Of a stretch of DNA of 64,000 nt, positions 7,070-49,110 are shown piece after piece. This stretch comes from a bacterium MS4 (GTDB lineage Bacteria > Bacillota > Clostridia > Oscillospirales > Acutalibacteraceae). Numbering within the stretch: the first letter of the stretch is position 1; every line of letters begins with the position of its first letter. Below the pieces are notes generated by a model. That model was not told the origin of the DNA. It searched no databases and was given only the letters and a program-made list of their open reading frames with translations. The translations under genes and the position numbers were made by a program. The stretch spans positions 434,001 through 498,000 of the forward strand of contig CCFG01000017.1 in the NCBI GenBank assembly GCA_000752215.1, in the 5' to 3' direction.

Positions 7070-7845
7070 AGACAATATTAAGAACTGAAAATGTTGTAAA
7101 AAACTTTTCCGGGCTGGTCGCGGTACGTGATTTGTCCTTCGAAATGGCTGAACGGAACATCCACGCGCTGATCGGGCCTAACGGGTCCGGAAAAACCACG
7201 ACCATCAACATGATTACCGGCGCTTTTCCGGTAACGAGCGGCCGGATTTTCTACGGGGACACCGAAATCAGCGGAATGCCCACTTATCAGATCGCCCGGC
7301 TGGGGATCGGAAGGACGTTCCAGAACCTGAAGCTGTTCCATTCCATGACGGTGATGGAAAACCTGATGGTAGGCGGCCACCAGATGATGCCCGCCGGCAT
7401 TTTCCGCTTTCTGGTGGACCCCGCCAAAAGCAGACAGGAAGAAAAGCAGGTGGAGGAAAAGGCAAAGCAGGTTCTGGATTTTATCGGCATGTACGACCTG
7501 AAGGACGAAAAAGTTTCGTCGCTGCCGTACGGACGCCAGAAAATGACTGAGCTGGGCCGCGCGCTGATGATGGACCCCAAGCTGCTTTTCCTTGACGAGC
7601 CCGCGGCCGGACTGAACCCTTCCGAGCGTGTGGAGTTCGTCAATATCATGCTGAAGACCTTCGACCTTGGGATCGACCTGTTCCTGATTGAACACAACAT
7701 GGACGTCGTCATGAACATTTGCAGCCGGATCACCGTTCTGAACTTCGGTGCAAAAATCGCAGAGGGTACGCCGGATGAAATTAAGAACAACGAGGAAGTC
7801 ATCAAGGCATATCTGGGCAACAGATACCAGGCCGAGAAAGCCTAA
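7066..7845 (+). CDS. livG: Liv-type ABC ATPase LivG (system 1)
   Basis: 259 residues. Walker A GPNGSGKT is at 37-44, the signature is LPYGRQ (LivG-type), Walker B is LLFLDEP and the switch His is in LIEHNMD. The ATG at 7066 has GGAGGAAGG upstream and overlaps the livM stop. It should power import as a heterodimer with the following LivF. Confidence 0.93.
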   Translation: MKTILRTENVVKNFSGLVAVRDLSFEMAERNIHALIGPNGSGKTTTINMITGAFPVTSGRIFYGDTEISGMPTYQIARLGIGRTFQNLKLFHSMTVMENLMVGGHQMMPAGIFRFLVDPAKSRQEEKQVEEKAKQVLDFIGMYDLKDEKVSSLPYGRQKMTELGRALMMDPKLLFLDEPAAGLNPSERVEFVNIMLKTFDLGIDLFLIEHNMDVVMNICSRITVLNFGAKIAEGTPDEIKNNEEVIKAYLGNRYQAEKA

Positions 7846-7861
7846 AGGAGGAGGTTGAACC

Positions 7862-8572
7862 GTGCTAAAGATTAATAAGATTGACGTATTTTACGGAAAA
7901 GTGCAAGCCCTCTTCGACGTTTCCATGGAGATCAACGACAAAGAGATCGTGTCCATTATCGGCGCCAACGGCGCGGGAAAGTCCACGCTGATGAAAGCGA
8001 TTGCCGGGCTGAACAAAGCAAGCAGCGGCACCATCGAGTTCATGGGCGAAGAGATCGGCAATGTCCGCGCCCACAAGATCGTTCACAGGGGAATCGTCTA
8101 TGTGCCGGAAGGCCGCGAGGTATTTCCCGAAATGTCCGTGCTTGAAAATCTGGAAATGGGTGCATTTAACAGAAAGTTCTCCAAAGCTGAGCTGAACAAA
8201 AACATCGAGGAATCCTACGCCCTCTTCCCCCGGCTGAAGGAACGCTCCAAGCAGCTGGCGGGCACCCTCAGCGGCGGTGAACAGCAGATGCTTGCCATTT
8301 GCAGAGGAATGATGTCCGACCCGAAGCTCATTATGTTCGACGAGCCTTCTCTGGGTCTTGCCCCGGTTACCGTCAGCGAAATGTTCGACGCGATCGTAAA
8401 AATTCACGAGGTCCGCAAAATCCCCGTCATCATCGTAGAACAGAACGCATTTATGGCCATGTCCATTTCCGACAGGACCTATGTCATGGAAGTGGGACAC
8501 ATGGTGCAGTGCGGAAACAGCCAGGAACTGCTGAACAGCCCGACAATCAAAAAAGCGTATCTTGGCGGATAA
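7862..8572 (+). CDS. livF: Liv-type ABC ATPase LivF (system 1)
   Basis: 236 residues from a GTG start with AAAGGAGGAGG upstream. Walker A GANGAGKS is at 34-41, the signature is LSGGEQQ, Walker B is LIMFDEP, and VEQN stands in place of the switch His as is normal for LivF. It ends with the typical AYLGG. The LivF of system 2 is the same length and very similar. Confidence 0.93.
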   Translation: MLKINKIDVFYGKVQALFDVSMEINDKEIVSIIGANGAGKSTLMKAIAGLNKASSGTIEFMGEEIGNVRAHKIVHRGIVYVPEGREVFPEMSVLENLEMGAFNRKFSKAELNKNIEESYALFPRLKERSKQLAGTLSGGEQQMLAICRGMMSDPKLIMFDEPSLGLAPVTVSEMFDAIVKIHEVRKIPVIIVEQNAFMAMSISDRTYVMEVGHMVQCGNSQELLNSPTIKKAYLGG

Positions 8573-28752: not shown

Positions 28753-29541
28753 TTAGCTCAGTACGGTAAATTTAACGATATTATAAAGATTGATGACAAT
28801 AATTACAGCCATAAAGCCGATAAACAAACGGTCCACTGTTTCCTCTGAAATTTTCTGGTTTAAATGGCCGCCGATTATACCGCCGGTCACCCCCGCCACA
28901 ACCATAAAAACAAGGATCAGCACACTGATCGGCGGGACGGAACCGTTGATCAAAGTCTGCAAAAGGCTTGCGAGCTGCGAAAACATGATGATATACAGAG
29001 AATTGGCGGCAGCCTTCTTGATGTCCATGGAAAAAAAGAAGAACAGAACCGTCAGATTGATGGGTCCCCCTCCAATACCAAGGAAGGAAGAAATAGCCCC
29101 CAGTGCTAAACCGATCAGGACACATCCCGCCAGACTGCTCACATGGCAGGTACGAATTCTGCCGGAATAAACGCTGTACAGAAGCGCACCCAGTGTAACA
29201 ATTAACAGCAGGCCCGCCTGTACCGCGCCCAGGTGGTTTTCATTCTGGAGCAGGGATTTCAGAATATCGAACAACGATTTCCCAATAATCCCGCCGAAAA
29301 CGGAACCAACTGCAAGAGGTGTGCTTGTCCTGACATCGATCATCCCGCGATTTCTGGAATTTCTCAGCACGGAGATAACGGACATGGAAAGCACCGTGCA
29401 GCCTGAAAGAAAGCTGATGCTGCTGACACTCATAACGCCGACGGCGTCAAGCACAGGCTTGATGATTACGCCGCCGCCTACGCCGCAGATTCCGCCGATG
29501 ACCGAAGCCGACAGACTGACTAAAAAAAACAGCCAAAGCAT
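28753..29541 (-). CDS. TauE/SafE-family membrane permease (copy 1)
   Basis: 262 residues from the ATG at 29541 (GGGGGCAG upstream); a TTG at 29565 is possible. It has about eight membrane spans in two halves with the paired glycine motifs GGICGVGGGVIIKP and AISSFLGIGGGPINL of the family. TauE/SafE proteins are thought to export sulfite or sulfonates or to move other small anions. It ends a minus-strand series that starts with a GntR/UTRA gene, and another member lies upstream at 30232-30966. Confidence 0.87.
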   Translation of the reverse strand: MLWLFFLVSLSASVIGGICGVGGGVIIKPVLDAVGVMSVSSISFLSGCTVLSMSVISVLRNSRNRGMIDVRTSTPLAVGSVFGGIIGKSLFDILKSLLQNENHLGAVQAGLLLIVTLGALLYSVYSGRIRTCHVSSLAGCVLIGLALGAISSFLGIGGGPINLTVLFFFFSMDIKKAAANSLYIIMFSQLASLLQTLINGSVPPISVLILVFMVVAGVTGGIIGGHLNQKISEETVDRLFIGFMAVIIVINLYNIVKFTVLS

Positions 29542-29651
29542 AAGCTGCCCCCATTGTTTTATCAAATATGAAGGAATCTGTTGAAACCGCAGCCAGTCAC
29601 GGCAATTGCTTAGGCCGCCTTATTTCATGAACCTCCATTACCAAATCAATA

Positions 29652-30101
29652 TTATTTTTCTATGGATAATTCTTTTATGTACTGTTTTACCAGCATAACG
29701 CAGTGGTTAATATAAGAATCTGTTGTAGAACTGACTTCTGATGCAATCATAATCCTGCATCGGTTAAGAGGAACCAGTATTTTTTGAGCGGAAGAAGAGC
29801 TGATCGCAAAAGCCATAGCCGGAGTTAACTCCCCCAGCATCGAATTTGCTGAAATAATCGCCAAAGGGCCCAAAATAATGTCTGATTGTTTAGCCGTTTG
29901 AACAATCGCATTTTGCCCGGTGGCGCCGATATCAGCCCCACCTTTCATCATGCAGTTTGTGGCTATGGAGTTTGTACCCAGTGCACACAGAGTCACACCG
30001 TTCCCCTTGAGAAAGTTTTCTCTCAGCTTTATGATAAGAGATTTACCGATACCTCCGCCTTGCCCGTCTACAACAGATATCAAGATTTCTTTTTTTGACA
30101 T
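29652..30101 (-). CDS. DUF3842 family protein
   Basis: 149 residues with the DUF3842 pattern: SVVDGQGGGIGKSL at the start (Rossmann-like glycine-rich turn), ALGTNSIAT, MMKGGADIGATGQNAIV and SANSMLGELTPAMAFAI. The family is common in Clostridia and has no known function. The fold looks nucleotide-binding. Here it sits between two TauE/SafE permeases. AAAGGAAT precedes the ATG. Confidence 0.85.
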   Translation of the reverse strand: MSKKEILISVVDGQGGGIGKSLIIKLRENFLKGNGVTLCALGTNSIATNCMMKGGADIGATGQNAIVQTAKQSDIILGPLAIISANSMLGELTPAMAFAISSSSAQKILVPLNRCRIMIASEVSSTTDSYINHCVMLVKQYIKELSIEK

Positions 30102-30177
30102 AATGTATTCCTTTCATGCATTCACTTTCTGAGGGCCTCAGCAATCAATACAAATGAAGCAGCCGGCACCGTACGCG

Positions 30178-30215
30178 TTCCTTCCGCTGTGGAAGCGGAC
30201 TGACCGACAGGTCCG
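30178..30215. other. Hairpins between permease and DUF3842 genes
   Basis: Two adjoining inverted repeats (CCGCTGTGGAAGCGG and GCGGACtgaccgacagGTCCGC) in the 130-base gap. No clear T-run, so termination is uncertain; processing or stability elements are possible. Confidence 0.35.
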
Positions 30216-30231
30216 CAATATATTTACAGTT

Positions 30232-30966
30232 TTATTTTATCAATAAAAATGCCATTACAGGCAAAGCGACATAGATGATCTTACAGATTTTCTCCCTGTC
30301 GAGCCGGCGAAAAAAATAAAGCCCAAGGAAGCCCGCGGCTATCGCCGCTGCCGACGCAGACACGATGTAGGGTGCTGCATCCAGCGTAATATTCCCATAA
30401 AGGTAATGCAGTAATGTAGAATACAGGCCTGCAATAATGAAGCTAAATTCTATGTTTGCTTTAAAGTTCAGATGGTCGTCACAGATGCTGAAATAATAAA
30501 TCATAAAAAACGGGCCTACAATATTAAACATTCCGGTGGAGATTCCCGTCACCAACCCAAACAGGACCGCATTTTTTAATGACTTTTTGATCACCAGCCT
30601 ATGTTTCTGAGAGATAATGAAATATACTGTCAGCAGCAGGATAAAAACCGCCAGAATAATGCGTAACATCCTTTCAGAGTTGTGCATTAAAATATACATC
30701 CCCAAAGGAATCGTGAGCAGGCAGCAAAGCACCGGGACAAGGACGGTACGCAAAGATAGATTTTTATGCAGTATCGCAACCATCTGCAGGCCGATAGCGA
30801 CTACAGTAATTGCTGAAATTGCCGAACATAAACGCATCGGCAGCACCAGCGGCATCAGGGCCATCGCAAGAATACCATATCCGAAACCAACAGACGCCTG
30901 CAAAAAGGCAGCAAGAAAGTTGATGACGACAATCCATAACAGATTGGTCATCTGAAATTCAAACAT
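30232..30966 (-). CDS. TauE/SafE-family membrane permease (copy 2)
   Basis: 244 residues with about seven to eight membrane spans. The first half carries FLQASVGFGYGILAM and the second GISTGMFNIVGPFFMIYYF, the variant of the TauE/SafE motif with fewer glycines. GGGAGGTACT precedes the ATG. It follows the GntR/UTRA gene by 34 bases and is probably in the same transcript. It differs clearly from copy 1, so the two may form a pair or handle different anions. Confidence 0.85.
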   Translation of the reverse strand: MFEFQMTNLLWIVVINFLAAFLQASVGFGYGILAMALMPLVLPMRLCSAISAITVVAIGLQMVAILHKNLSLRTVLVPVLCCLLTIPLGMYILMHNSERMLRIILAVFILLLTVYFIISQKHRLVIKKSLKNAVLFGLVTGISTGMFNIVGPFFMIYYFSICDDHLNFKANIEFSFIIAGLYSTLLHYLYGNITLDAAPYIVSASAAAIAAGFLGLYFFRRLDREKICKIIYVALPVMAFLLIK

Positions 30967-31000: not shown

Positions 31001-31738
31001 TTAAAAGGTTGTGTGATACCGTTTGAGCGTCAGAGTATAACGATATCGATCCGCCAGATAAACCGTACGATTGAACATGATCGCACGGTCACCCTCGACA
31101 TAGGTGACACGTTGTATCGCCAGTACCGGAGTGGTCACCTTTTGATTCAGCAGGGCGGCTTCCTCCAAAGTGGGGGTTTCCGCCGTGATGGCCTGATCGG
31201 CGGTAGTGATTTTATACCCGTTTTTCTCCAAAACCGGGTAGACAATATCATTGTGGAAATCCAAGCCTTCAAGCAGATATGCCACATTCATCGGCAGATA
31301 TGTATAATCAATGCCGAGAGTCTTCCCGTCAACATAAATCTGACGTATAATCATCAGCATTTTAAAGTCCTGCTCAATGTGCATAGCGGCGCACACTTCC
31401 GGCGGGGCCACAACATACTCCTGTTTTCGAACAACGACTTCACATTTCATTTGCTTGATGGCAAATTCCTCTACAAAACCCATGAGACTGTCCAGCTTAT
31501 GATCGATTACTTTAATCGCAACGTAGTTGCCCTTACCCTGTTTTTTGACAAGTACGCCGTCTTTTACCAACTCGTTGAGTGTTTGCCGTACAGTAACACG
31601 GCTGATTCCATACATCTCTGAAAGCTCCCGCTCGCTGGGGAGTTTATCCCCACCCTTATACTCGCCTTCAGAAATTTTTTGAAGGATCGTGTCTTTAAGC
31701 TGTATAAACAAAGGTTTTCCGTTTCCTGGATATAACAT
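31001..31738 (-). CDS. GntR regulator with UTRA domain (HutC subfamily)
   Basis: 245 residues from the ATG at 31738; a TTG at 31750 is an alternative. The N-terminal winged helix-turn-helix reads KLPSERELSEMYGISRVTVR. The C-terminal UTRA ligand domain includes MLMIIRQIYVDGKTLGIDYTYLP and PVLAIQRVTYVEGDRAIMFN. It is placed between the NitT/TauT importer and the TauE/SafE permeases, so it probably senses the transported compound or a product and controls one or both groups. Confidence 0.9.
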   Translation of the reverse strand: MLYPGNGKPLFIQLKDTILQKISEGEYKGGDKLPSERELSEMYGISRVTVRQTLNELVKDGVLVKKQGKGNYVAIKVIDHKLDSLMGFVEEFAIKQMKCEVVVRKQEYVVAPPEVCAAMHIEQDFKMLMIIRQIYVDGKTLGIDYTYLPMNVAYLLEGLDFHNDIVYPVLEKNGYKITTADQAITAETPTLEEAALLNQKVTTPVLAIQRVTYVEGDRAIMFNRTVYLADRYRYTLTLKRYHTTF

Positions 31739-31774
31739 GTAAACACCCAATTTCCGAATAAATTTATGAACTTT

Positions 31775-31827: not shown

Positions 31828-32580
31828 TTACCACCATTTGATCTGATCTGTTACATATTTCCTTATTTTGATAAATTCAGGATCCGTAACATCTCTTGGT
31901 CTCGGCAGATCAACGACCACTTCTTCTTTAATCGTTGTAGGCTTATTCGACATAATAAGGATCCGCTCTGCAAGGTAAACCGCTTCTTCTATATTATGGG
32001 TGATAAATACGACGGTACTTCCCAGTTCTTTCCACAAACGAATTACTTCATCTTCAAGATAAAATCTCAATTTTACGTCCATTTGCCCATAGGGCTCGTC
32101 CATCAGCAGCAGGTCGGGATTCATTGCAAACGCTCTCCCGATGATGATCCTCTGCTCGGAACTTACGGACAATTGATGGGGATAGGAATTTCTGAATTTT
32201 TCGAGTCCCAGCAGGGAAATGATATTTTCGACCCGCTCGTCGATTATCTTTTTATCCAGTTTCTTCAGTTCCAGTCCAAACCGAAGATTTTTTTCCACCG
32301 TAAGCCACGGTATGGCGGATGGTTCCTGAAACACAAAGGCTAAATTATGTTTTCTGGGGTCTGCAGACTCTCCGTCAATGAACAGATCGCCTTTGGACGG
32401 CATGTATATCCTGGTCAGCAGGTTTAAAAACGTGGTTTTTCCGCAGCCGGTCGGACCTACTACGCAAACGAATTCTCCCTTTTTAATATTGAACGAAATA
32501 TCATTCAACACATGGAGGTTTCCAAAATATTTTGTCAGGTTTTTTACTTCAATTTTATAGTCCTGATTGCTCTCACTCAT
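31828..32580 (-). CDS. NitT/TauT-type ABC ATPase with degenerate signature motif
   Basis: 250 residues from the ATG at 32580 (GGGAGGAAAA upstream). Walker A GPTGCGKT (42-49), Walker B LLMDEP (Asp161, Glu162) and the switch His195 (ITHN) are intact. The ABC signature, normally LSGGxxQ, reads LSVSSEQ at 137-143. The partner ATPase at 32600-33367 has an intact signature but altered Walker A and switch residues. Together they would form one complete and one degenerate ATP site. The protein resembles SsuB/TauB/NrtD. It is the last gene of the importer operon. Confidence 0.9.
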   Translation of the reverse strand: MSESNQDYKIEVKNLTKYFGNLHVLNDISFNIKKGEFVCVVGPTGCGKTTFLNLLTRIYMPSKGDLFIDGESADPRKHNLAFVFQEPSAIPWLTVEKNLRFGLELKKLDKKIIDERVENIISLLGLEKFRNSYPHQLSVSSEQRIIIGRAFAMNPDLLLMDEPYGQMDVKLRFYLEDEVIRLWKELGSTVVFITHNIEEAVYLAERILIMSNKPTTIKEEVVVDLPRPRDVTDPEFIKIRKYVTDQIKWW

Positions 32581-32599
32581 GACATTTTCCTCCCGGCAT

Positions 32600-33367
32600 T
32601 TATAATGCAAGATCCGTATTTTCAGATATTTCCTTACGGATGGATAAAAACTTTGGATCAATCGTATCACGAGGTCTCGGCAAATCAATATCATAGATTT
32701 CCTTTACTGTTGCCGGACATTCACTCAACAAGACAATTCTGTCACCCAAATAAACCGCTTCCTCAATATTGTTGGTTACGAAGATAACGGTTCTTTTTTC
32801 CTGCTGCCAAATTCTCTGAACTTCCTCTTCCATGGAGTATCTTGTCTGGGCATCCAACTGCCCAAAGGGCTCATCCATCACAAGTATTTCCGGATTATTG
32901 GTATACGCTCTGGCAATGCCTACTCTCTGTTTCATTCCGCCGGACAGCTGATTGGGGTACGACTTTTCGAATCCCTTCAGACCAACAAGATCAATGTATT
33001 TCTGGGCGGTTTCCCGGCGTATGTCCTTATTCACTCCAGCCATCTGCAGCCCAAACTCCACATTACCCATAACTGTTTTCCAGGGCATAAGCGCCAATTT
33101 CTGAAACACCATGCCAATGCGCTTATCGCTCCCAACCAGCTTTTCTCCGTCGAGATAGGTATTTCCCTCCACGGATTTTTCCAGGCCGCCGATAATATTG
33201 AGCAGCACACTTTTGCCGCAGTGGCCCGGCCCGAGGATAACTAAGAATTCATTATCGTATACATCCAGAGAGATATCGGAAACCGCATCAAACACCTTGT
33301 TATTTACCACATAGCTTTGGGATATGTTCTCCAGCCTTAATTTGACCTTTTTCTTGTCCATGGACAT
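32600..33367 (-). CDS. NitT/TauT-type ABC ATPase with altered Walker A and switch residues
   Basis: 255 residues from the ATG at 33367 (GAAGGAGTG upstream), overlapping the permease stop. The signature LSGGMKQ (141-147) and Walker B LVMDEP (Asp165, Glu166) are normal. Walker A reads GPGHCGKS (46-53), with His49 where Gly is expected, and the switch region reads VTNN, with Asn199 in place of the usual His. Both changes fall in the same ATP site as the partner's broken signature. An asymmetric heterodimer is the likely form (inference). Confidence 0.9.
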   Translation of the reverse strand: MSMDKKKVKLRLENISQSYVVNNKVFDAVSDISLDVYDNEFLVILGPGHCGKSVLLNIIGGLEKSVEGNTYLDGEKLVGSDKRIGMVFQKLALMPWKTVMGNVEFGLQMAGVNKDIRRETAQKYIDLVGLKGFEKSYPNQLSGGMKQRVGIARAYTNNPEILVMDEPFGQLDAQTRYSMEEEVQRIWQQEKRTVIFVTNNIEEAVYLGDRIVLLSECPATVKEIYDIDLPRPRDTIDPKFLSIRKEISENTDLAL

Positions 33368-34149
33368 ATCACTCCTTCTGCAATCTGTGTGACAATCGCA
33401 AGGATCGCCCCAACAATGCCAATGCAAATCATAGACAGGAGAACTAAGGCTTGATCTCCCGAATCCATACCTCTTGTAATCAAAAACCCTACTCCGGCTT
33501 TCGCGCCAAGCATTTCAGCCGCCAAAACGACCATCCAGCCCGCGCTTGCCGAAGTACGTATGCCCGCGAAAATAGCATCCAATGCGGAGGGAATCGCAAT
33601 CTGGAACAGCATTTGCCTGCTGTTTGCATTAAAGATTGTTCCAACGTCCAGATACAGTTTATTGACATTGCTCATACCTGCCTGTGTATTGACAACAACC
33701 GGCATCAATGCACCGATAAAAACGATCAGGACTTTGGACCCTTCACCGGTACCAAACCAGATTGTAATCAGGGGAATCCACGCTAATGGAGGCACTGCCC
33801 TGAAGGCGGTAAAAATAGGCCCGAACAGTGCGTTGCACTTTTTGCTCCAACCCAGCACGATACCGAAAGAAACTCCAATGACCCACGATAACAGCAGCGC
33901 TGTAAACACTCTCTGTAAGCTGATTAGAATATGTCCCCACAGGCTCAGGTTTTTGATTGGTTTTCTCAGCAGCTCAAGAAGCCGGTCCCACGTTGCTATC
34001 GGGGATGGAAACTGAGCATTTCCAAAGCTGGATGCGAAAAGCCAGAGGGCGATTAACAGAACAATGGAGACCACAGGAAGGACCTTATAAATCTGTTTCC
34101 TTCTTAATTCCTTTTTTTCCGATTCGCTTAATACAATATGTTTCTTCAT
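33337..34149 (-). CDS. NitT/TauT-type ABC permease (second)
   Basis: 270 residues from the ATG at 34149, which overlaps the preceding stop as ATGA. About six membrane spans, with the EAA-loop region IFNANSRQMLFQIAIPSALD that contacts the ATPase. It belongs to the SsuC/TauC/NrtB family. It differs from the other permease of the operon, so the channel is a heterodimer, whereas most SsuC-type importers use two identical subunits. It carries AFRAVPPLAWIPL, typical of the family. Confidence 0.9.
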   Translation of the reverse strand: MKKHIVLSESEKKELRRKQIYKVLPVVSIVLLIALWLFASSFGNAQFPSPIATWDRLLELLRKPIKNLSLWGHILISLQRVFTALLLSWVIGVSFGIVLGWSKKCNALFGPIFTAFRAVPPLAWIPLITIWFGTGEGSKVLIVFIGALMPVVVNTQAGMSNVNKLYLDVGTIFNANSRQMLFQIAIPSALDAIFAGIRTSASAGWMVVLAAEMLGAKAGVGFLITRGMDSGDQALVLLSMICIGIVGAILAIVTQIAEGVICPWTRKRSN

Positions 34150-34982
34150 AGTTTTTTCCATCCTAACACCTTATTTTCTACCATATTCAAAATGGCCGTA
34201 AACAATGTGCCAATGATTCCTATAACAACAATTCCCAGAATAATAATGTCAGGCCGCGCAAACTGTCTGCCCATCAATATCATATAGCCAAGGCCCGCCG
34301 ACGCAGACAGCATCTCCGCCGCTACCAGTGTGGCCCATGCATTTCCCAGCGCCACCTTTATTCCCGCAAAGGTCATTGTCATGGATGAAGGAATGCCGAT
34401 TTTCCGGAAAATGGTAAAATTCGAGGCGCCGCATGTCTTTGCCACATTTATCAGGACGGGGTTGGTCTGCTTAATACCGGTATATGCATTGATAACACAG
34501 GGGACAAACGCCGAAAAGAATACGATGAACGCTTTTGCCTGTAACCCAATGCCGAGCCAGACGATTGTAAGCGGGATCCACGATATTGGAGGGATTGGAC
34601 GAATAATTTCAAAAACAGGGCGCATAAAGCTGTCGAACCCTCTGTACCATCCCATAAGAAGGCCCAACGGAATTCCAATAATGATTGCCAGAAGAAACCC
34701 CGTCAAAGATACCTGCAGACTGGCTAACACATTTACGCCCAGAACCGCTCCGTCCGGCGCCGGATCCGTAAGCTTCACAACAAACAGATTGAATATAGCT
34801 AACGGTGACGCCAAAAATTTTTCAGAGAGCAATCCGGTGGAAACACTTATCTGCCATATAAGAAAGAAACCGAGCACTCCTATTACAGATAGCATTGCTA
34901 AAAAATACTGACTTTTTCTCTTTTGATTTTGTACAAATGCAATTCGTTCCTCGTTGCTGAATTTTTTCTTGGGTTGGTCCAT
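34146..34982 (-). CDS. NitT/TauT-type ABC permease (first)
   Basis: 278 residues with about six membrane spans. Family stretches are IIRPIPPISWIPLTIVWLG and the EAA loop VAKTCGASNFTIFRKIGIP. AAGGGATGG precedes the ATG. It is coupled to the next permease and lies about 100 bases after the binding-protein gene, with a strong hairpin in between. Confidence 0.9.
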   Translation of the reverse strand: MDQPKKKFSNEERIAFVQNQKRKSQYFLAMLSVIGVLGFFLIWQISVSTGLLSEKFLASPLAIFNLFVVKLTDPAPDGAVLGVNVLASLQVSLTGFLLAIIIGIPLGLLMGWYRGFDSFMRPVFEIIRPIPPISWIPLTIVWLGIGLQAKAFIVFFSAFVPCVINAYTGIKQTNPVLINVAKTCGASNFTIFRKIGIPSSMTMTFAGIKVALGNAWATLVAAEMLSASAGLGYMILMGRQFARPDIIILGIVVIGIIGTLFTAILNMVENKVLGWKKL

Positions 34983-35084: not shown

Positions 35085-36239
35085 TTATTTTGCAGCCGAT
35101 TCCATCAATGCTTTCGCTTCTTTGGCAATGGAGGGGTCGATTAATCCGTCATCCAATAATTTCACCCTGTCCTCAGCCTTGTATTTTCCCTGCTTGACAA
35201 AGAAATCCATTGTCACCAGAAGGTCATTTTCCGCCTGCAGCAAAGGTCTCTTCGTATACAAGCCTTTCGGGTCTTCTACCGTTTTTGTCATAAGCTCAAT
35301 CGACTTGTCAAAGGAAGGGCATTTAAAGTAATCCATAATACGTTTCGCAAGGCTTTCGTCGACTTTGATGCCCTCTTCGTCGCAGGAATCTTTATAGTAT
35401 GCAATCGCCTTGTTCTTATTTTCTTCGCTGGCATTAATCCAGTCCACTGTTTTGTAAAAAACGGCCCAGGTCTTTGTCAGAAGCTCCCTTTTGTCTTTCA
35501 AAGCCTCCCGTGTGGATACAAGGCCGCTGGTATTGGTGATACCCAGTTTTCCGGCATCGCTGATTCTTACATAACCCTGATCTTCAGCGTTGCAGGCAAA
35601 TGCATTCCATACTGCAAGACCGTCTCCCTGTCCCCCGTTAAATGCATTCAACGCACTCGATACGTCCATATTGACCGATTTGATGTCCGACATACTCAAT
35701 CCAAGCTTTTCAAGCTGTGTCGCAAGCGTAAAGTGAGCAGTCGTTCCGACGGGATACAGCCACGTGGTACCCTTCCAGTTGTCGGGATTGGTGGGATCCT
35801 GTGCGATCTTACTGTCTTTTCTTACAAACAGTCCCTGATTATCTTCATAGTCGGCGATGCCGAGCATCGGTGTGTCGTGTCCGATCTGTCCGACCAAAAC
35901 ACCCGCAGAACCCGCACCGGCGATGTCCCAGTCGGCGTTTGCTTCCATCATAGCCGGACCATTGGTAAAGGTCTGGTAATCGACTTCAATATTGAGTTCT
36001 TTGAAAAATCCTTCCTTATCCGCAATATAGAACGGAATGGAAAGAGCGGAACCGGCAAAATATCCCACGCGCAGTGTTTGAGTGTCTTTAAAAGGTTCAA
36101 TGCCAAAAGTTGTCTTGCCTCCCGTTGAGCTTTTTTCTCCGGATGTGGCTTCCGAACTGTTCTGTGCCTGTCCGCAGCCGCTTAAAAGGGATGTACACAA
36201 TGTCAAAATCAGTAGTGCGCTCAGTAATTTCCTTTTCAT
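35085..36239 (-). CDS. NitT/TauT-family substrate-binding lipoprotein
   Basis: 384 residues from the ATG at 36239 (GGGAGGTTTAAG upstream). Signal peptide with lipobox LLSGC (Cys22), then a Ser/Gly-rich linker and the SsuA/TauA-like fold: LRVGYFAGSALSIPFYIADKEG near the start and DWDIAGAGSAGVLVGQ. It should capture a small anion such as a sulfonate, nitrate-like ion or carboxylate outside the membrane. The TauE/SafE and hydroxyacid enzymes nearby favour a sulfonate or hydroxy acid (inference). Confidence 0.9.
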   Translation of the reverse strand: MKRKLLSALLILTLCTSLLSGCGQAQNSSEATSGEKSSTGGKTTFGIEPFKDTQTLRVGYFAGSALSIPFYIADKEGFFKELNIEVDYQTFTNGPAMMEANADWDIAGAGSAGVLVGQIGHDTPMLGIADYEDNQGLFVRKDSKIAQDPTNPDNWKGTTWLYPVGTTAHFTLATQLEKLGLSMSDIKSVNMDVSSALNAFNGGQGDGLAVWNAFACNAEDQGYVRISDAGKLGITNTSGLVSTREALKDKRELLTKTWAVFYKTVDWINASEENKNKAIAYYKDSCDEEGIKVDESLAKRIMDYFKCPSFDKSIELMTKTVEDPKGLYTKRPLLQAENDLLVTMDFFVKQGKYKAEDRVKLLDDGLIDPSIAKEAKALMESAAK

Positions 36240-36365
36240 ACTTAAACCTCCCAGATATTTTATTGTCAATATGGGAATTCAATATTCCAGCTTCTTGAAC
36301 GCCCATATTTTGGCCCTGAACCTTTATCGAAATGCTTTAGGGATTTTCAAAGAGCTGGGAACAGA

Positions 36366-37814
36366 TCAGTCGTCCTTCATACAGAGATGAACAGCGCCGA
36401 GCTTATAGGTCTGCGGCAGGGCAAGAATATTCGGGTTCGGTCCGACAAACTTCTTCTCCGCATCGGCCAGTGCTTCCTCAAATGTCGCACGGGTTTTCAG
36501 GCCCATACTTCTTGCGATTCCCGGCTCTCTGGCTCCCACAATATAGATGGCACTCGTATCCATCTCCGCAATATGGCCGCAGCTCATCATGCTGAACCCG
36601 TGGAACGGATGGAACGCATTCGCAAAACGATACTGGCGAATGTACTCTTCCTTTGTGGCGAAATACTCTCCATAATGATTCATATCCGGCAGTACCTGAT
36701 TGTAATCATGCTGGAACATCTCATGCAGCTCACGCAGATAAGGCCATCTTTCTTCATGGAAATAGCCGTCGCAGATGCTGGAAACAATAAATACACAATG
36801 GTCCGACATAATCCGTTTATGACGGATGACCTGAGCGGACAGCGCCTGCATCATCTGAATTGGGTTGGTGCCCATACCGTTTCCATAGTGGAAATCCGTA
36901 GGCATACCGAACACAACTACATCATATTTCTTATCCGCCCATTTAACAAACGTACGCTTGTCCGCTGTTTTCCAGCTCACGGGCTGCATTTCTTTTGCCC
37001 AACCGCTGTTGATCTCAATCTGACGGGAGTACGTATCCAGCACCGCGTCACAGCAGAAAAACTTTTTGCCCATTTTTTCTTCCATGAGCATCCCCTGCTG
37101 GTCGAACTTATGGCGCATCTCACTGTGTGTCGAAACAGGAACGAAGTCGGGCCGGTGCATTACTTCCGGTACGTGATGCGCTGAGATGCTTCTCCAATGG
37201 CTGATGCCCGTCGCGCAGTGTTTATAGCCGCCGGAGTAGGCCCCGTACGGATTCCCCTGCGTATGGCCGATCAAGATCGCGACATCCGCGTCATATACAT
37301 ATTTGTTCATAATGACATGGTCGCCGTGTTCCGTGAATCCCAAATCGACCAGATGGTCATAATCTTCGCTGTCATGGCTTGTAATCTGACCGGAAAAATA
37401 AAACTCGTGGAACAGGTCGTCACCAAGAATCGTTTTCATTTCCTGTACGGTCGTACGGGGATGAAGGCCGTTGGAGAACAGCAGCAGAATATCTTTTTTC
37501 TCCACACCCGCGGAATATAGCTCGTCAAGGCAGGCACGGACAGAGACCTTGCGGTGACTCGTTGGCTGATTGCCCCCCTTAACGATATCCGGAATAACAA
37601 TGACGACCGTACTTCCTTTATGTGCCAGCTCTGTCAAAGTCGGCATTCCAATCGGGTTACGGATGGAACCGAGAGTCGCCTTGTACAGAGTATCCCAGTC
37701 CTGCGGAAGACACGCCGGATCAGGTACGGTCGTACCCGGGATAAATACGTCCGTGTTATCCGGCAGATTTGCGTTCATAAGGCCCTGACCATATTCAAAG
37801 GACAGCTGCTTCAT
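36366..37814 (-). CDS. LarA-family (lactate racemase domain, DUF2088) protein, copy 1
   Basis: 482 residues. The N-terminal half contains VVIVIPDIVKGG and SNGLHPRTT (His118, place of the LarA catalytic His108). IGHTQGNPYGAYSGGYKHC includes Lys198, where LarA carries its pincer cofactor, and His206 follows. By alignment on the YSGGxK motif, the second catalytic His of LarA (His174) is replaced by Asn188, so simple lactate racemisation is doubtful. No larB/C/E cofactor genes are in the window. It follows the dehydrogenase gene by three bases, so the two should act on the same 2- or 3-hydroxy acid. Confidence 0.8.
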   Translation of the reverse strand: MKQLSFEYGQGLMNANLPDNTDVFIPGTTVPDPACLPQDWDTLYKATLGSIRNPIGMPTLTELAHKGSTVVIVIPDIVKGGNQPTSHRKVSVRACLDELYSAGVEKKDILLLFSNGLHPRTTVQEMKTILGDDLFHEFYFSGQITSHDSEDYDHLVDLGFTEHGDHVIMNKYVYDADVAILIGHTQGNPYGAYSGGYKHCATGISHWRSISAHHVPEVMHRPDFVPVSTHSEMRHKFDQQGMLMEEKMGKKFFCCDAVLDTYSRQIEINSGWAKEMQPVSWKTADKRTFVKWADKKYDVVVFGMPTDFHYGNGMGTNPIQMMQALSAQVIRHKRIMSDHCVFIVSSICDGYFHEERWPYLRELHEMFQHDYNQVLPDMNHYGEYFATKEEYIRQYRFANAFHPFHGFSMMSCGHIAEMDTSAIYIVGAREPGIARSMGLKTRATFEEALADAEKKFVGPNPNILALPQTYKLGAVHLCMKDD

Positions 37815-37817
37815 AAT

Positions 37818-38732
37818 TTATTTCTCCTTCTTGTAATGGCGGTCATACACTTTGTACAACGCGCTGGTATCTTTTCCACCCAATCCATTTGCACTTGCGA
37901 TTTCATTATAGATCTGTACGGTTCCCGCAATGACGGAAGGCGCCTTCGCGTCCTTGGCCATCTGAAGGGCGAGCTTCGTGTCCTTGATCAGCAAGTCAAC
38001 GGTAAAGGTGGGGTGATTATAGTCGTCCGCGACAATGTTTTGTCCTACTTCCTTAAACAGCCCGCTAACGGTCGCGGCCCCGCTGCAGGCCACTGTGTCA
38101 AAGAAAACTTTCTTATCTATCCCGACCTTATCAGCGATTGCCATCACTTCAGAAGAAATGGCATTGATAGTGGAAAACATCATCTGATTAAGTAATTTGA
38201 GTGCATTGCCGGCGCCTGATTCGCCAACATGAATCGCATTCCCCGCGAAAGCCGACAGTACCGGACGCACATATTCCAGCGCCTCAGCGCTTCCACCGGT
38301 CGGCAGCATCCACTTTCCGACCGCCGAGGGCCTGCCGAGAATCGAGCAGTCCAGATAGGCGGCTCCGCGCTGCGCTATCCGCTTTGCAACCGATTTTGTG
38401 GTATTGGGGTCGACGGTGCTGGTATCAATAACAACATGGTCGCCGCTCAGCGCTTCGGACACGCCATCCGTACCAAAAACCACTTCTTCAATCTGTACCG
38501 GTCCAGGTAAAGACATCAATACCACTTTGCAGCTTTTAGTCAATGTTTTCGGTGTGTCGGCAACTTCACACCCCGCAGATCTTGCATACTCTGCTGCTGC
38601 AGGGAACTTGTCATAGGCAACCACAGTCCATCCGGCCTTTAATAAGCTGTCCAGCATACATTTCCCCATTGTCCCGACACCGATTAAGCCTATTTTCTCA
38701 ATGGGCTTATCGGGTTCTGTCCAACTTGTCAT
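37818..38732 (-). CDS. Beta-hydroxyacid (3-hydroxyisobutyrate-type) dehydrogenase
   Basis: 304 residues. Rossmann motif GLIGVGTMG (15-23), the catalytic Lys179 in GNALKLLNQ and Asn182 are as in the family. The substrate loop, usually DAPVSGG, reads DCSILGRPSAVGK, with an Arg (134) that would favour a strongly acidic substrate. Sulfolactaldehyde reductase YihU has a GR in the same loop, but so do some unrelated members. AGGAGGAATTCTC precedes the ATG. First gene of the unit with the LarA-family gene and probably the importer. Confidence 0.85.
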   Translation of the reverse strand: MTSWTEPDKPIEKIGLIGVGTMGKCMLDSLLKAGWTVVAYDKFPAAAEYARSAGCEVADTPKTLTKSCKVVLMSLPGPVQIEEVVFGTDGVSEALSGDHVVIDTSTVDPNTTKSVAKRIAQRGAAYLDCSILGRPSAVGKWMLPTGGSAEALEYVRPVLSAFAGNAIHVGESGAGNALKLLNQMMFSTINAISSEVMAIADKVGIDKKVFFDTVACSGAATVSGLFKEVGQNIVADDYNHPTFTVDLLIKDTKLALQMAKDAKAPSVIAGTVQIYNEIASANGLGGKDTSALYKVYDRHYKKEK

Positions 38733-44405: not shown

Positions 44406-45695
44406 TCAAAGAAGAAAACCCTCTTCGTCAAACTCCATTTCTTCCGGACTGCCAATCAGCTCCACGTCTTCCCTGTCCCGAATTTCTTCATACAGTGTTT
44501 CCGACACCTGAATTCTGTCCAGAGAAAGTGTGTTTCTGGCTCTCGCAATGCGGACCCGGTCGAAGCGGATGCCGTTGCATGTCCGGATACAGAGGAGCAG
44601 GGCTTCTTGGTCGTTATTGGCGTACATCGGGATCCGCCCGGCATTAAGCACCGTCGCGGTGACGGCGTTTATCCATGTGGGATTCCAGTCGACCCCATTC
44701 AGGCAGCGGCGGGTAGAAATATCCGCCATTGCCAGCCCGCTGCCGTTGTGATGGGTTTCCCTTGTCAATCCGCGGATAAACAGCTTTTGGGTGTGGAATT
44801 CGCCGGGAAACCCTTCGGAGGTATTCCTCCCAACAATATTGGGATCATAGCCGTTTCCGCTGATGTTCTTTCCGATTTCATCAAGGATCAGGACGTCGCA
44901 GTCCCTGAATTTGAATTTGGGCATTCTCCTTTTGGCAATTTCCAGCAGCTCCGCGTCCTTTTGAAGGAGCCTTTCCTTTTCGCAGACCTCCAGATTGCAG
45001 ATTTCGTCATACGCGTTCTGCACCACCCCAACCCCAAAAGCGACGGGGGCTTTTTCCAGAAATATCTGCGCGATTTGGGGAATCAGTTCCGCAAAGCGGC
45101 CAAACCCTTCCATATGGAACATGGACGCCCCTTTGTGCTTTGCAAGCCCGATGGCAATCATCTTTGCCATTCCGCTTTCGTGTTTTCCCCTGAAGTTTGT
45201 GTGCGGCTTGACCTTATTGAACACGACGATCCCGTCGGATTCCCACGCGTTTCTGTCGCAGTATAGAGGAGTTCCGTCCGGCAGCTCACCGTACCGGACT
45301 ACCTCCATGGAAGAGAGGACGGGTACCCCTATGGATTCCTCCGTGACATGGTACCCCGCAAGCAATTCCCGCTGACCTTCGGCGGTCGCCCCGCCGTGGC
45401 TCCCCATGGCGGGGACCAGGAACGGCTCCGCTCCCCACTCTTTCAGAATGTCGCAGACGGTTTTCAGTATCTGCACCAGATGGGGAATCCCCCGGCTGCC
45501 CACGGTCAGGCAGATCCGCCTGCTGCGGAAATGCTCCCTGTTTTCCAGATTGTTCTCCATTTGAAACCGGATGTGCCGCGCGAGATCAGTAATTTTATCA
45601 GCATCGTATTTTTGCCGGACGGTCACCATTTTCGGGATAACGACATGCTCCATTCCCTGAACCGTCAGATGGACTTCGGGAAAATCAATATACAT
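44406..45695 (-). CDS. LarA-family (lactate racemase domain) protein, copy 2
   Basis: 429 residues of another branch of the family: VPAMGSHGGATAEGQ (His100), NKVKPHTNFRGKHESGMAK (His165, Lys178), and LILDEIGKNISGNGYDPN in the middle. Members of this branch are often found with sugar-acid or amino-acid catabolic genes and are not proven lactate racemases. It follows livF of system 2 by 33 bases and ends the operon. It shares little direct sequence with the LarA-family protein at 36366-37814. AAAGGAGAG precedes the ATG. Confidence 0.82.
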   Translation of the reverse strand: MYIDFPEVHLTVQGMEHVVIPKMVTVRQKYDADKITDLARHIRFQMENNLENREHFRSRRICLTVGSRGIPHLVQILKTVCDILKEWGAEPFLVPAMGSHGGATAEGQRELLAGYHVTEESIGVPVLSSMEVVRYGELPDGTPLYCDRNAWESDGIVVFNKVKPHTNFRGKHESGMAKMIAIGLAKHKGASMFHMEGFGRFAELIPQIAQIFLEKAPVAFGVGVVQNAYDEICNLEVCEKERLLQKDAELLEIAKRRMPKFKFRDCDVLILDEIGKNISGNGYDPNIVGRNTSEGFPGEFHTQKLFIRGLTRETHHNGSGLAMADISTRRCLNGVDWNPTWINAVTATVLNAGRIPMYANNDQEALLLCIRTCNGIRFDRVRIARARNTLSLDRIQVSETLYEEIRDREDVELIGSPEEMEFDEEGFLL

Positions 45696-45728: not shown

Positions 45729-46439
45729 TCAGCCGCCCAGATACGCTTTCTTGATCTCGTCGCTGTTCAGGAGCGTGCCGCTGTCGCCGGAAGCGGTAAC
45801 CAGACCGTTTTCCAGCACATAGCAGCGGTTAGATACGCTCAGAGCCATGTACGCGTTTTGTTCCACGATGATAATCGGGATATTCATCATTTTATTGACC
45901 CTGACCAATACGTTGAACATATCGTCCACAATGACCGGCGCCAGCCCCAAAGACGGCTCGTCGCACATCAGCAGCAGCGGGTCGCTCATCAGTCCGCGCG
46001 CGATTGCAAGCATCTGCTGTTCGCCGCCGCTGAGACTGCCGGCCTTCTGACTCGCGCGTTCCTTCAGCCTGGGAAAAAGCTCATACATGGAATCAAGATG
46101 CTCGTTCAGCTGCTTTTGGGAAAACGATTTTGAATACGCACCCATTTCCAGATTGTTCAGCACAGTCATGTTCGGGAACACCTCGCGTCCCTCCGGAATG
46201 TATACGATCCCCTTACGCGTGATCATGTGGGTCTTTTTATCCGTGATATTTTCGCCGCGGTACTCAATGGTGCCGTTTCTAGCCTTTACCACTCCCATAA
46301 TGCAGTTCATCAGGGTCGTTTTTCCCGCACCGTTGGAACCGATAATCGAAATGATTTCCCCATCGCCGATTTCCATGGAGATATTATGTAACGCCTGCAC
46401 CTTGCCGTAAAAAGCATCTATTCCGTTAATTTTAAGCAA
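45729..46439 (-). CDS. livF: Liv-type ABC ATPase LivF (system 2)
   Basis: 236 residues from a TTG start with GGGAGGTGTG upstream. Walker A GSNGAGKT (34-41), signature LSGGEQQ, Walker B LLMCDEP, and VEQN in place of the switch His as usual. It ends in AYLGG. Same length as LivF of system 1 and very similar. Confidence 0.93.
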   Translation of the reverse strand: MLKINGIDAFYGKVQALHNISMEIGDGEIISIIGSNGAGKTTLMNCIMGVVKARNGTIEYRGENITDKKTHMITRKGIVYIPEGREVFPNMTVLNNLEMGAYSKSFSQKQLNEHLDSMYELFPRLKERASQKAGSLSGGEQQMLAIARGLMSDPLLLMCDEPSLGLAPVIVDDMFNVLVRVNKMMNIPIIIVEQNAYMALSVSNRCYVLENGLVTASGDSGTLLNSDEIKKAYLGG

Positions 46440-46459
46440 TCTTCACACCTCCCGTCGTA

Positions 46460-47242
46460 TTAATTCTGGCTCTGCGCCTGATATTTGCGCCCCAGATACG
46501 CCTTGATGACCTCGTCGTTGTTCTGGATTTCCTTCGGCGTCCCCTCGGCGATTTTCGAGCCGAAATTCAGCACCGTAATTTTGCTGCTGATTTTCATGAT
46601 AACGTCCATGTTGTGCTCGATCAGGAAGAAGTCCGTTCCGTCCTCGTAGACCTTCATGATGACCTTGACCAGCTCCGAGCGCTCCGAAGGGTTCAGCCCC
46701 GCCGCCGGTTCGTCCAGAAGAATCAGCTTCGGGCCGGTCATCAGGGCACGGGCCAGCTCGGAAATTTTCTGCCTGCCATAGGGCAGGTTTTCCATCAGCT
46801 CGTCCTTCCATTTGTACATGCCGATATAGTCAAGAATCTGCTCCGCTTTTTCCTTCAGCAGCTTTTCTTCCTTCTGCGCGCCGCGCATGTTGAACAAACC
46901 CTTTAAAATTCCCATGGGCGCTATTTCGTGTCCGCCGACCATCACATTTTCCAGCAGCGTCATGCTGGGGAACACCTTGATGTTCTGAAACGTTCTGCCG
47001 ATGCCGGAACGGGCCACCTGGAAGGTTGGAAGCCCTGAAATGGTTTTCCCGTCCAACTGCACCTCGCCCGAGGTAAGCGGAGTCACGCCCGTAATCAGGT
47101 TGATGGTGGTCGTTTTTCCAGCGCCGTTCGGGCCAATCAGAGCGTGGATCGTGCGGTGCTCCATGGTGAGCGACAGATCGTTTACCGCCACAAGTCCCTG
47201 AAAACGCTTCGTAATGTTACTGACCTGCAATAAACTACTCAT
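46460..47242 (-). CDS. livG: Liv-type ABC ATPase LivG (system 2)
   Basis: 260 residues from the ATG at 47242, overlapping the livM stop by eight bases. Walker A GPNGAGKT (37-44), signature LPYGRQ, Walker B LILLDEP and the switch His in LIEHNMD. It pairs with LivF. Confidence 0.93.
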   Translation of the reverse strand: MSSLLQVSNITKRFQGLVAVNDLSLTMEHRTIHALIGPNGAGKTTTINLITGVTPLTSGEVQLDGKTISGLPTFQVARSGIGRTFQNIKVFPSMTLLENVMVGGHEIAPMGILKGLFNMRGAQKEEKLLKEKAEQILDYIGMYKWKDELMENLPYGRQKISELARALMTGPKLILLDEPAAGLNPSERSELVKVIMKVYEDGTDFFLIEHNMDVIMKISSKITVLNFGSKIAEGTPKEIQNNDEVIKAYLGRKYQAQSQN

Positions 47243-48227
47243 TTTCCGCACCGCCTTCCTGTGTTTTTTGTCCCACACATTTTTTTCTTATCCAGCGGTA
47301 CAGCCTTCTGATCCCGTCACCCCAGCCGTTCGGCAGAAAAATCGCGCCGAGGACGATGATGGTGGCGAAAACCAGCTGATAATAGGTCCCCAGAAACCTT
47401 AAAACCTCCGGCAGGGCAGTCACGATCACCGCACCCACCACGTTGCCGACCACAGAGCCAATGCCGCCCACCATCAGCATGATAACGAAGTTGGCGGAAA
47501 GATCCGTATTGAAGGTGGATGGATTCATATAACCCATGTAATGCGCGTACATGCTGCCGCCTATCGAACCGAACACAGCGGCCAGGGTAAACGCCTTGAT
47601 TTTTACGCTTGCGATATTCACCCCGCACATTTCCACCGCTTCCACATTGTCGCGCAGGGATTTAAACACCCTGCCCCACTTGGAGTAGGTAATCCGACAC
47701 GCGATGAAAAAGGCGATCAGGGCAATCACTAAAAACAGATAATACACGCTCTGCTGTGTGTTGAACTTGAAACCGAAAACGGAAAACGGGGGAATCTGGC
47801 GCAGTCCCTGCGTGCCGCCGGTAACATCGTTCAGGTTTGCGCAGAGCAGCCTGACCACTTCCGCAAAGCCGATGGTGGTGAGGGACAGATAAACGCCCTT
47901 GATACGAAGGCTTGGGAAACCGAGACCAACGCCGATCAGAAGACCCATGCAAACCGCGGCCAGCATCCCGAGCCACGGGGAAATCCCCAGATTTTTGGAA
48001 AGCAGCGCGGAGGTATAAGCCCCCAAAGCGAAAATACCGGCTGTCCCCAGATTCATCTGGCCGGTCAGGCCGGTAATGAAATTCAGTCCCAGCACAATGA
48101 CGATGTTGATCAGCAGACGGTTGATCACCAGCATATAATAATCGTTTTTGACGAACACGGGCACCAACAGCATGAAGATGCTCAATAAAACGATGCCGGC
48201 CAGTTTTGTGATATTTGATTTTGTCAT
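47235..48227 (-). CDS. livM: Liv-type ABC permease LivM (system 2)
   Basis: 330 residues from the ATG at 48227 (AAAGGGGTGG upstream); the longer frame to 48359 overlaps livH. GLNFITGLTGQMNLGTAGIF and MVGGIGSVVGNVVGA match LivM of system 1 closely. Many membrane spans. Confidence 0.92.
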   Translation of the reverse strand: MTKSNITKLAGIVLLSIFMLLVPVFVKNDYYMLVINRLLINIVIVLGLNFITGLTGQMNLGTAGIFALGAYTSALLSKNLGISPWLGMLAAVCMGLLIGVGLGFPSLRIKGVYLSLTTIGFAEVVRLLCANLNDVTGGTQGLRQIPPFSVFGFKFNTQQSVYYLFLVIALIAFFIACRITYSKWGRVFKSLRDNVEAVEMCGVNIASVKIKAFTLAAVFGSIGGSMYAHYMGYMNPSTFNTDLSANFVIMLMVGGIGSVVGNVVGAVIVTALPEVLRFLGTYYQLVFATIIVLGAIFLPNGWGDGIRRLYRWIRKKCVGQKTQEGGAENE

Positions 48228-48240
48228 ACCGCCACCCCTT

Positions 48241-49110
48241 TCATGCTTTTTTGCCCAGTATTCCGCCGGGACGAACGAGTAAGAACAAAATGAGAAGAAC
48301 AAAGGATACGACATCCTTATACACCGCGGGCAGAACCGCAACGGAAAGATTTTCCACAATACCGATAATTAGGCCGCCCAGAATGGCGCCTGGCATATAT
48401 CCGAACCCGCCGATCACGCCGGCTGAAAAGCCCTTCAGCCCGATCATGGAAGCCATATTCACATCAATATTGAACAGCGGGATAATCAGCATACCGATGA
48501 TACAGCAGATAATGGAACTGATTCCTGTTGTGATGCAGATATTCTGGGACACGTTGATTCCCATGAGAGCCGCCGCTTTTTTGTTCTGTGCGACGCAGCG
48601 CATGGCCTTTCCGGTTTTGGTAAAGGTAAGAAACGTCTGCAGACAGGCGACGACAACAATGGAGACAACGCAGATGTAAAGATTTGCCTTTGTAATGCTG
48701 ATGTCATGAATAATCACATTTCCCGTCAGCCAGTTGGGGACGGTGAAGGGAATCGGCCCCCAAATTAGACGGGTAGCCTCGTAAAGAATTCTGCCAAGCA
48801 TAATTGTGCCCATGACGGCGAAAATGGTGGAACGCATGTTTCTAAGCGGGTTGAAGATGGTGGATGCGACAAGCGCCCCGACGATTCCGGAAACGATCAT
48901 CGCGATGATCACCGACAGCCAGGAGTTAAGGCCAAGCCCCAACACCAAGGTTCCCCCGAAGATATATGCTCCCAGGGTGATCAGCTTATCATGGCTGAAA
49001 TTAAGCAAGCCTGTAGAGTTCCAGACGAGTGTGTATTCTATGCCGACCAAAGCATAGATAAAGCCCAGCGCGATCCCGCTGACCAAAAGTTGAATCAATA
49101 TTGCCAACAT
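48241..49110 (-). CDS. livH: Liv-type ABC permease LivH (system 2)
   Basis: 289 residues from the ATG at 49110 (AAAAGGAGTG upstream). It has about eight membrane spans with the same landmark stretches as LivH of system 1 (GFIYALVGIEYTLVW, GLKGFSAGVIGGFGYMPG). It lies 13 bases before livM. Confidence 0.93.
   Translation of the reverse strand: MLAILIQLLVSGIALGFIYALVGIEYTLVWNSTGLLNFSHDKLITLGAYIFGGTLVLGLGLNSWLSVIIAMIVSGIVGALVASTIFNPLRNMRSTIFAVMGTIMLGRILYEATRLIWGPIPFTVPNWLTGNVIIHDISITKANLYICVVSIVVVACLQTFLTFTKTGKAMRCVAQNKKAAALMGINVSQNICITTGISSIICCIIGMLIIPLFNIDVNMASMIGLKGFSAGVIGGFGYMPGAILGGLIIGIVENLSVAVLPAVYKDVVSFVLLILFLLVRPGGILGKKA

Follow-up and report, generated by a model that had tools for sequence, protein, structure and literature searches.

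Complementary motif changes in the paired ATPases of a NitT/TauT-type importer lineage

The standard example of a transporter with two equal ATP sites is the binding-protein-dependent type I importer, and the ATP-binding cassette (ABC) exporters with a degenerate site have no binding protein. We describe here a type I importer whose two ATPases, NBDA and NBDB (for nucleotide-binding domain, NBD), carry complementary changes in the motifs of the ATP sites. It is encoded in a stretch of 64,000 nucleotides from bacterium MS4 (Bacillota, Acutalibacteraceae; GenBank assembly GCA_000752215.1, contig CCFG01000017.1, positions 434,001 to 498,000), hereafter called the window. The best matches of NBDA in the PDB were CmpD/CmpC and NrtD/NrtC (9u9z, 8wm7, 8w9m), while NBDB matched the maltose-type ATPase 1v43 first and, among distinct proteins, CmpD next. 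Like the importer of the window, the cyanobacterial nitrate and bicarbonate importers Nrt and Cmp are of the NitT/TauT type and use two different ATPases. They differ in the ATP sites: in the alignments printed with the PDB matches, a comparison with NrtC and NrtD that an earlier sequence-only reading of this DNA had proposed, CmpD, NrtD and NrtC show a canonical Walker A (HSGCGKS), SGGMKQ and the switch His. Moreover, CmpC carries an extra C-terminal domain (PMC11349869) and NrtC a binding-protein homologue (PMC3688454), both of which are absent from NBDA (255 amino acids [aa]) and NBDB (250 aa).

The curated families nearest to NBDA by score include TauB, SsuB and SaoA, a comparison made through family models, where NBDA scored 221 against a cut-off of 360 for SaoA, 220.6 against 357 for TauB and 162.4 against 395 for SsuB (NCBIfam). 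Each of the two ATPases remained below the cut-off in all 25 best of 182 NCBIfam families. Since both lie under every cut-off shown, they represent a lineage beside TauB, SsuB, NrtCD and SaoA, and neither is a TauB or an NrtD.

Motif changes and the composite ATP sites

Translation of the two genes agreed with the motifs and residue numbers that the sequence-only reading had given. NBDA has GPGHCGKS at Walker A (His49), VTNN at the switch (Asn199) and a normal LSGGMKQ signature, whereas NBDB has a normal Walker A, Walker B and switch His but LSVSSEQ as signature. The Walker B motif reads MDEP in both proteins (coordinates in Table 1).

A first scan of the genome collection with NBDA, using peptide patterns that excluded the Walker A, signature and switch residues, revealed 31 loci. 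Nineteen of them carried an NBDA-NBDB pair, and with the window 20 of 20 pairs shared the complementary changes. Among the other 12 loci, the 11 displayed were all canonical and the twelfth, L031, scored too low to be displayed. With sequences from whole-genome searches and fetched regions, the set grew to 45 different NBDA and 47 different NBDB in 45 pairs, identical sequences being counted once and the pair of genome G502 (see below) kept out of the family counts. NBDA shared the locus in 45 of the 47 cases of NBDB; the two NBDB without a partner (L110 and L112) come from contigs that stop short of where NBDA would be expected. Clustering at 90% identity left 39 clusters of NBDA and 41 of NBDB, so the count does not depend on near-copies. 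The carriers of the changed pair include named records of Bacillota, Desulfovibrionaceae and Anaerolineaceae.

Every NBDA, the one of the window included (n = 45), presented GxG[Q/H/R/L]xGK at Walker A, where the outgroup has GxSGxGK. The third position was Gly in all of them, and the fourth was Gln (34), His (7), Arg (3) or Leu (1), but never Gly. The switch residue was Asn in 43, Ser in one (L084) and unreadable in one (L120), which makes it other than His in all 44 readable rows. NBDA nevertheless keeps the Walker A Lys, the Q-loop Gln, the Walker B Asp, the catalytic Glu and the LSGG signature (each in 45/45), the Walker A Ser/Thr, and the A-loop aromatic residue (43 of 43 readable rows of 45). 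Only three columns were at least 95% fixed in NBDA and below 5% in NBDB and the outgroup: Gly48 of Walker A, Tyr155 and Asn199 of the switch. The signature of NBDB is [LIV]SxS, with both glycines gone in 47/47 and Val, Ala, Thr, Ser or Ile at the third position. The catalytic Glu is also unchanged in all 47 NBDB, and the D-loop Asp is kept in 46, L115 having Thr. Nine columns are fixed in NBDB and foreign elsewhere, among them Walker A Thr44, signature Ser140 and the C-terminal Ile247, Trp249 and Trp250. The NBDB frame of L115 (G598:C37, 4051-5451, plus strand) is 467 aa long, compared with about 250 aa elsewhere, and one short permease open reading frame (ORF) was detected beside it.

The outgroup consisted of 41 NBDs chosen by hand from the first scan and the whole-genome searches, and all of them were canonical (Walker A Gly, [LI]SGG and switch His in 41/41). 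L031 did not reach the score limit for inclusion, and six loci omitted beforehand (L045, L047, L048 and L028-L030, the last three being near-copies of L027) were likewise canonical. The same was true of 23 matches (L058-L080) read, out of many, below the family score range in the NBDA search of 398 genomes of the window's phylum, and of 11 loci just under the NBDB score gap, nine of them new since L170 and L175 repeat L071 and L059. A pattern search for the Asn switch in the 398 genomes, which the Ser form escapes, gave 28 matches. Seven had Asn, all within NBDA genes, 18 had a His codon in the printed letters, and in three no ABC ATPase was found; translation covered the last three matches. 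The 45 pairs contained no case in which both subunits had intact motifs, the finding that the sequence-only reading had named as one that would speak for drift or sequence error. The pair nearest to an intact one, that of G502, is partly changed.

If NBDA and NBDB form a head-to-tail heterodimer, it follows from the established composite geometry of ABC sites (PMC7756269) that all the changes would fall in one of the two sites. The earlier claim that they collect in a single degenerate site and leave one full site is thus supported by the tally of the 45 pairs and by this geometry. Site 1, the canonical one, would be built from Walker A and B, the Q-loop and the switch His of NBDB and the LSGGM signature of NBDA. 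Site 2, the degenerate one, would combine the Walker A of NBDA without its fourth-position Gly and the Asn switch with the NBDB signature lacking both glycines. Site 2 most likely still binds ATP, because NBDA keeps the A-loop aromatic residue, the Walker A Lys, the Walker B Asp, the catalytic Glu and the Q-loop Gln. It would bind ATP without hydrolysing it and, as a holding site, help to keep the NBDs together and the dimer closed, while site 1 would hydrolyse once per cycle. We infer heterodimerisation, retention of ATP at site 2 and one hydrolysis per cycle from these patterns, and we give a probability of roughly 0.8 to the reading that NBDA and NBDB form an obligate heterodimer that drives a NitT/TauT-like importer of type I, with two unlike ATP sites and one hydrolysis per cycle.

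Inheritance of the pair and alternative explanations

The two ATPases are inherited together. Of the 398 genomes, 7 had NBDA scores of at least 365 bits, at 8 loci, the next score being 319; for NBDB, 8 loci, again in these 7 genomes, scored at least 417 bits, the next being 280. In these searches the six best first-look candidates per genome were scored, so misses are possible. Among 60 genomes of the family, four had NBDA scores above 390 bits. In the phyla of G457 and G458, NBDB was found in 11 of 247 genomes, one of them G502, and in 2 of 201; further samples gave 2/29, 2/129 and 1/130 genomes. There is overlap between these samples, which include their own centre genomes, and one match of the 129-genome sample is probably G151, which has the same coordinates. 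The changes at the positions of His49, Asn199 and LSVSS, for which a check of co-occurrence across genomes had been suggested, occur together in every readable pair. The pairwise distances of NBDA and NBDB correlate (0.892 over 45 pairs), a value reached in none of 2,000 permutations. The two genes are adjacent in most loci read, but some loci have the order NBDB-binding protein-permeases-NBDA (L081-L085, L109 and L119) or NBDB-permeases-NBDA-binding protein (L111, L113, L114 and L116). Pairing and motif changes are kept across these rearrangements, which speaks for NBDA and NBDB being a functional pair.

Comparison of the window with L001 gave dN/dS values of 0.040 for NBDA and 0.017 for NBDB, at high dS (1.22 and 1.74, respectively); dS was saturated between the window and L002. 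NBDA is under purifying selection rather than decaying. Within the clades, at least five changes were counted at Walker A position 4 and at least five at signature position 3, and Gly was found in no row. The switch requires three changes on the tree, which fits two gains, or a gain and a reversal, plus the Ser variant. A careful tree recovered the 45 NBDA as one clade (97/97) and the 47 NBDB as another (100/99). A quick tree places NBDA with the outgroup, and the careful tree, for which no root was inferred, weakly groups NBDA, NBDB and two outgroup rows (64/97). A simple duplication giving NBDA and NBDB as sisters was considered and is unsupported; the branch on the NBDB side is long (0.67, compared with 0.18 on that of NBDA).

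The partly changed pair of G502 (L108, contig C144, 3352-5666, minus strand) has the order substrate-binding protein-one permease-NBD-NBD, and no second permease gene was found near it in the 10 kb read. Its first NBD has a canonical Walker A, ISGG and an Asn switch, and its second has an LSAG signature with Walker A and the switch His intact, so that by motif the changes would again face each other in one composite site. The tree places both G502 NBDs on the NBDB side, including the one in the NBDA role (100/99), and forcing the latter into the NBDA clade was rejected (AU test, P = 0.017). Trees from half alignments and with the motifs masked (48 of 135 rows) gave the same placement. Around the signature, however, the first NBD is more like NBDA (70% versus 49% mean identity), and the C-terminal half of the protein has its highest identity to an NBDA. 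A plain ancestral intermediate is not secured, as the tree places the NBDA-role protein on the NBDB side. G502, a single example, may have arrived at this asymmetry independently or may be an early branch. The pair, placed outside the NBDA clade by the tree, suggests that such asymmetry may have arisen along more than one path or stepwise, with switch and signature changing before Walker A.

Several points weigh against a heterodimer with one hydrolysing and one holding site. The heterodimer, nucleotide binding and the choice of the hydrolysing site are drawn from sequence and geometry. The 45 pairs share ancestry and are not 45 independent events, and the G502 pair is only partly changed. Some canonical features are not universal, the D-loop Asp being absent from one NBDB (L115). 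Weak hydrolysis at site 2 is possible because the catalytic Glu is kept in 45/45 NBDA, and the bulky residue at Walker A position 4 might block ATP binding altogether.

This last point leads to the main rival, an empty second site, in which the altered P-loop would be unable to bind nucleotide and the transporter would close with just one ATP bound. The loss of the P-loop Gly from all NBDA and of both signature glycines from all NBDB speaks for this explanation. We consider it unlikely, though worth serious attention, since the A-loop aromatic, Lys, Ser/Thr, Asp, Glu and Gln that NBDA keeps would be expected to erode in an empty site. Moreover, Gly is fixed at position 3, so that the motif reads GxGxxGK[ST], a pattern used by other P-loop proteins. 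A regulatory role, in which the degenerate site would not hold ATP in every cycle but would sense ATP, ADP or whether substrate is loaded, appears less probable still. A non-catalytic site is mentioned as a possible ATP sensor for ABCC7 (PMC7756269), but a Pfam scan found no extra regulatory domain on either NBD, and indeed no second domain above cut-off beside PF00005.

Homodimers, in which each ATPase would pair with itself in this or another transporter and the motif changes would be unrelated, are in our view very improbable. The mean identity of only 39% between NBDA and NBDB within a pair would be compatible with separate partnerships, as would the outgroup loci, which show a single ATPase beside the permeases in the stretch read. 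Yet in a homodimer of NBDA both sites would contain the altered Walker A and switch, and in one of NBDB neither site would have a normal signature. The complementary losses, the shared occurrence in 7 of 398 genomes and the single gene cluster kept after reordering also argue against them. Random decay or sequencing error in one genome has a negligible chance and was rejected, as the same changes recur in 45 pairs across lineages, dN/dS of NBDA is 0.04 and nothing was found in its favour.

Operon, neighbouring genes and possible substrates

The importer genes form an operon-like run, all on the minus strand of the window, in the order LarA-like, binding protein, PERM2, PERM1, NBDA, NBDB and GntR regulator (Table 1). 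The ORFs confirmed the positions given earlier for both ATPases, for which the strand had gone unstated, and the two are separate ORFs that are not fused in one chain. The complete set of a NitT/TauT-type (type I) importer is present (PF00528 twice, PF09084, and PF00005 twice), with the same genes in the relatives. The GntR/UTRA regulator probably controls the operon. The LarA-like protein is a possible pathway partner of the importer, and LarA-like genes also adjoin it in L001, L005 and L117.

Table 1. Features of the importer region, with positions in the window
Feature	Position	Strand	Evidence or remark
GntR/UTRA regulator, directly downstream	31001..31750	minus	Pfam scan; also beside the pair in L001
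NBDB, ABC ATPase	31828..32580	minus	ORF and translation, 250 aa; PF00005 101.7 bits
NBDB switch ITHN, intact	31993..32004	minus	His in 47/47
NBDB signature LSVSS (LSVSSEQ) for LSGGx	32158..32172	minus	Fourth position Ser in 47/47; third never Gly
NBDB Walker A GPTGCGKT, intact	32434..32457	minus	Gly at position 4 in 47/47
NBDA, ABC ATPase	32600..33367	minus	ORF and translation, 255 aa; PF00005 98.5 bits
NBDA switch VTNN	32768..32779	minus	Asn199 for His
NBDA signature LSGGM (LSGGMKQ), intact	32933..32947	minus	Intact in 45/45
NBDA Walker A GPGHCGKS, residues 46-53	33209..33232	minus	His49 for Gly; Gly48 where the outgroup has Ser
PERM1, permease (BPD_transp_1)	33337..34161	minus	82.4 bits
PERM2, permease (BPD_transp_1)	34146..34982	minus	83.1 bits
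Substrate-binding protein, NMT1/SsuA-like	35085..36269	minus	PF09084 50.6 bits; TIGR01728 69 bits, below its cut-off of 163.5
LarA-like (Lar_N) protein, upstream	36366..37814	minus	PF09861 118.1 bits

The two unlike permeases and the NMT1-type binding protein are encoded upstream of the ATPases in the same orientation. The importer had been called asymmetric throughout, and this stands insofar as the permeases are two unlike genes. As a family pattern, permease asymmetry was rejected, since among the loci aligned only the subclade of the window has lost the coupling-loop Gly of PERM1, six loci having been left out of that alignment. The residue is Asn in the window, L001-L005, L007, L121 (first copy) and L125, and His in L008.

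The flanks of the importer in the window (28753-30966 and 36366-38732, minus strand) encode two TauE/SafE proteins, a DUF3842 protein, the LarA-like protein and a reductase. The latter is of the 3-hydroxyacid-dehydrogenase type and matched the sulfolactaldehyde-reductase model below its cut-off. A second LarA-type gene (44406-45695, minus strand) scored above the cut-off for nickel-pincer-cofactor isomerase group 22 (NF052515). The window also contains Liv-type branched-chain amino-acid ABC genes (45729-48359, minus strand; family scores below the cut-offs), as well as two adjoining ATPase-like ORFs (7030-8569, plus strand) that by motif alone resemble another such pair.

The scan of neighbours across loci covered 187 of 239 ORFs, with the pair loci L006, L017, L088 and L125 left out, and considered the 25 commonest families of each list. 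Among these commonest families, sulfatases accounted for 7 of 89 and 8 of 98 ORFs and TauE exporters for 3 of 89. Class III aminotransferases made up 5 of 98 neighbours (near the importer in L081, L082, L110, L115 and L119), and the sulfoacetaldehyde acetyltransferase model TIGR03457 matched 3 of 98; these two families point to taurine-like substrates. Near the importer in 14 loci (L009, L011, L012, L013, L016, L018, L024, L087, L090, L120, L121, L123, L124 and L126) there is a cluster of 15 related ORFs, of which 10 carry a sulfatase-like [CS]xPSR motif; this cluster appears to consist of the sulfatases. In L009, a member of this cluster lies directly downstream of NBDB. Clusters of 12 and 9 ORFs share many of the same loci and probably correspond to the response regulators and histidine kinases in the Pfam counts.

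The binding proteins have about 23-76% identity to that of the window in local alignments, and such wide divergence indicates that substrates probably differ within the family. With NBDB at 420 bits or more, we counted 6 copies in the genome of Clostridium sp. MCC353 (G462, source of L004) and 3 in that of Hungatella hathewayi (G461, source of L008). The copies in these genomes have diverged binding proteins, which suggests substrate diversification. Our guess for the substrate of the family is an organosulfur or hydroxy-acid anion.

Comparison with known degenerate sites

No description of a NitT/TauT-type importer with a degenerate site was found by full-text searches of the open-access literature, which is weak evidence since most subscription journals lie outside it. 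The sequence-only reading had not been aware of such a feature in SsuB/TauB-type importers, and this remark holds for the NitT/TauT type within that literature, but importers with a degenerate site are known in the fused RbsA and NupO. These are type II importers with one degenerate ATP site (PMC11466899), as predicted for the importer of the window. They differ in that their two NBDs are fused and the importer fold is another one, and their degeneracy consists of the loss of the Walker A Lys of the second NBD together with a deviating signature, whereas the pair described here keeps the Lys (PMC11466899). Another importer with two different ATPases is the dipeptide importer DppBCDF, in which electron cryomicroscopy located an ATP analogue in DppF only (PMC12136057). 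Unlike in NBDA and NBDB, the motifs of DppD and DppF are both functional, and both proteins are reported to hydrolyse ATP when DppA is present (PMC12136057).

A parallel in arrangement is found in heterodimeric exporters (TM287/288, TmrAB, TAP, ABCG5/G8 and Pdr5), where a changed NBD core faces a changed signature of the partner. According to a review of exporters, the signature is changed in all human degenerate sites, and a Glu-to-Asp change in Walker B is the second commonest alteration (PMC7756269). The pair of the window differs by keeping the catalytic Glu and losing the Walker A Gly at position 4 and the switch His. We regard as evenly balanced the larger claim that a whole importer lineage, with several copies in some genomes, runs on a single hydrolysable site through a recipe (fourth-position Gly and switch His lost, Glu kept) unlike that of the exporter review. 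Pdr5 lost its activity once all four motifs were made canonical (PMC7756269).

Whether one or two ATP are hydrolysed per substrate is an old question for ABC importers. A natural importer family with one disabled site would offer a direct test of it, as the two sites could be separated by mutation, labelling and structure. The partly changed relative in G502 could help to trace how such asymmetry evolves, and the family would allow the degenerate sites of exporters and importers to be compared.

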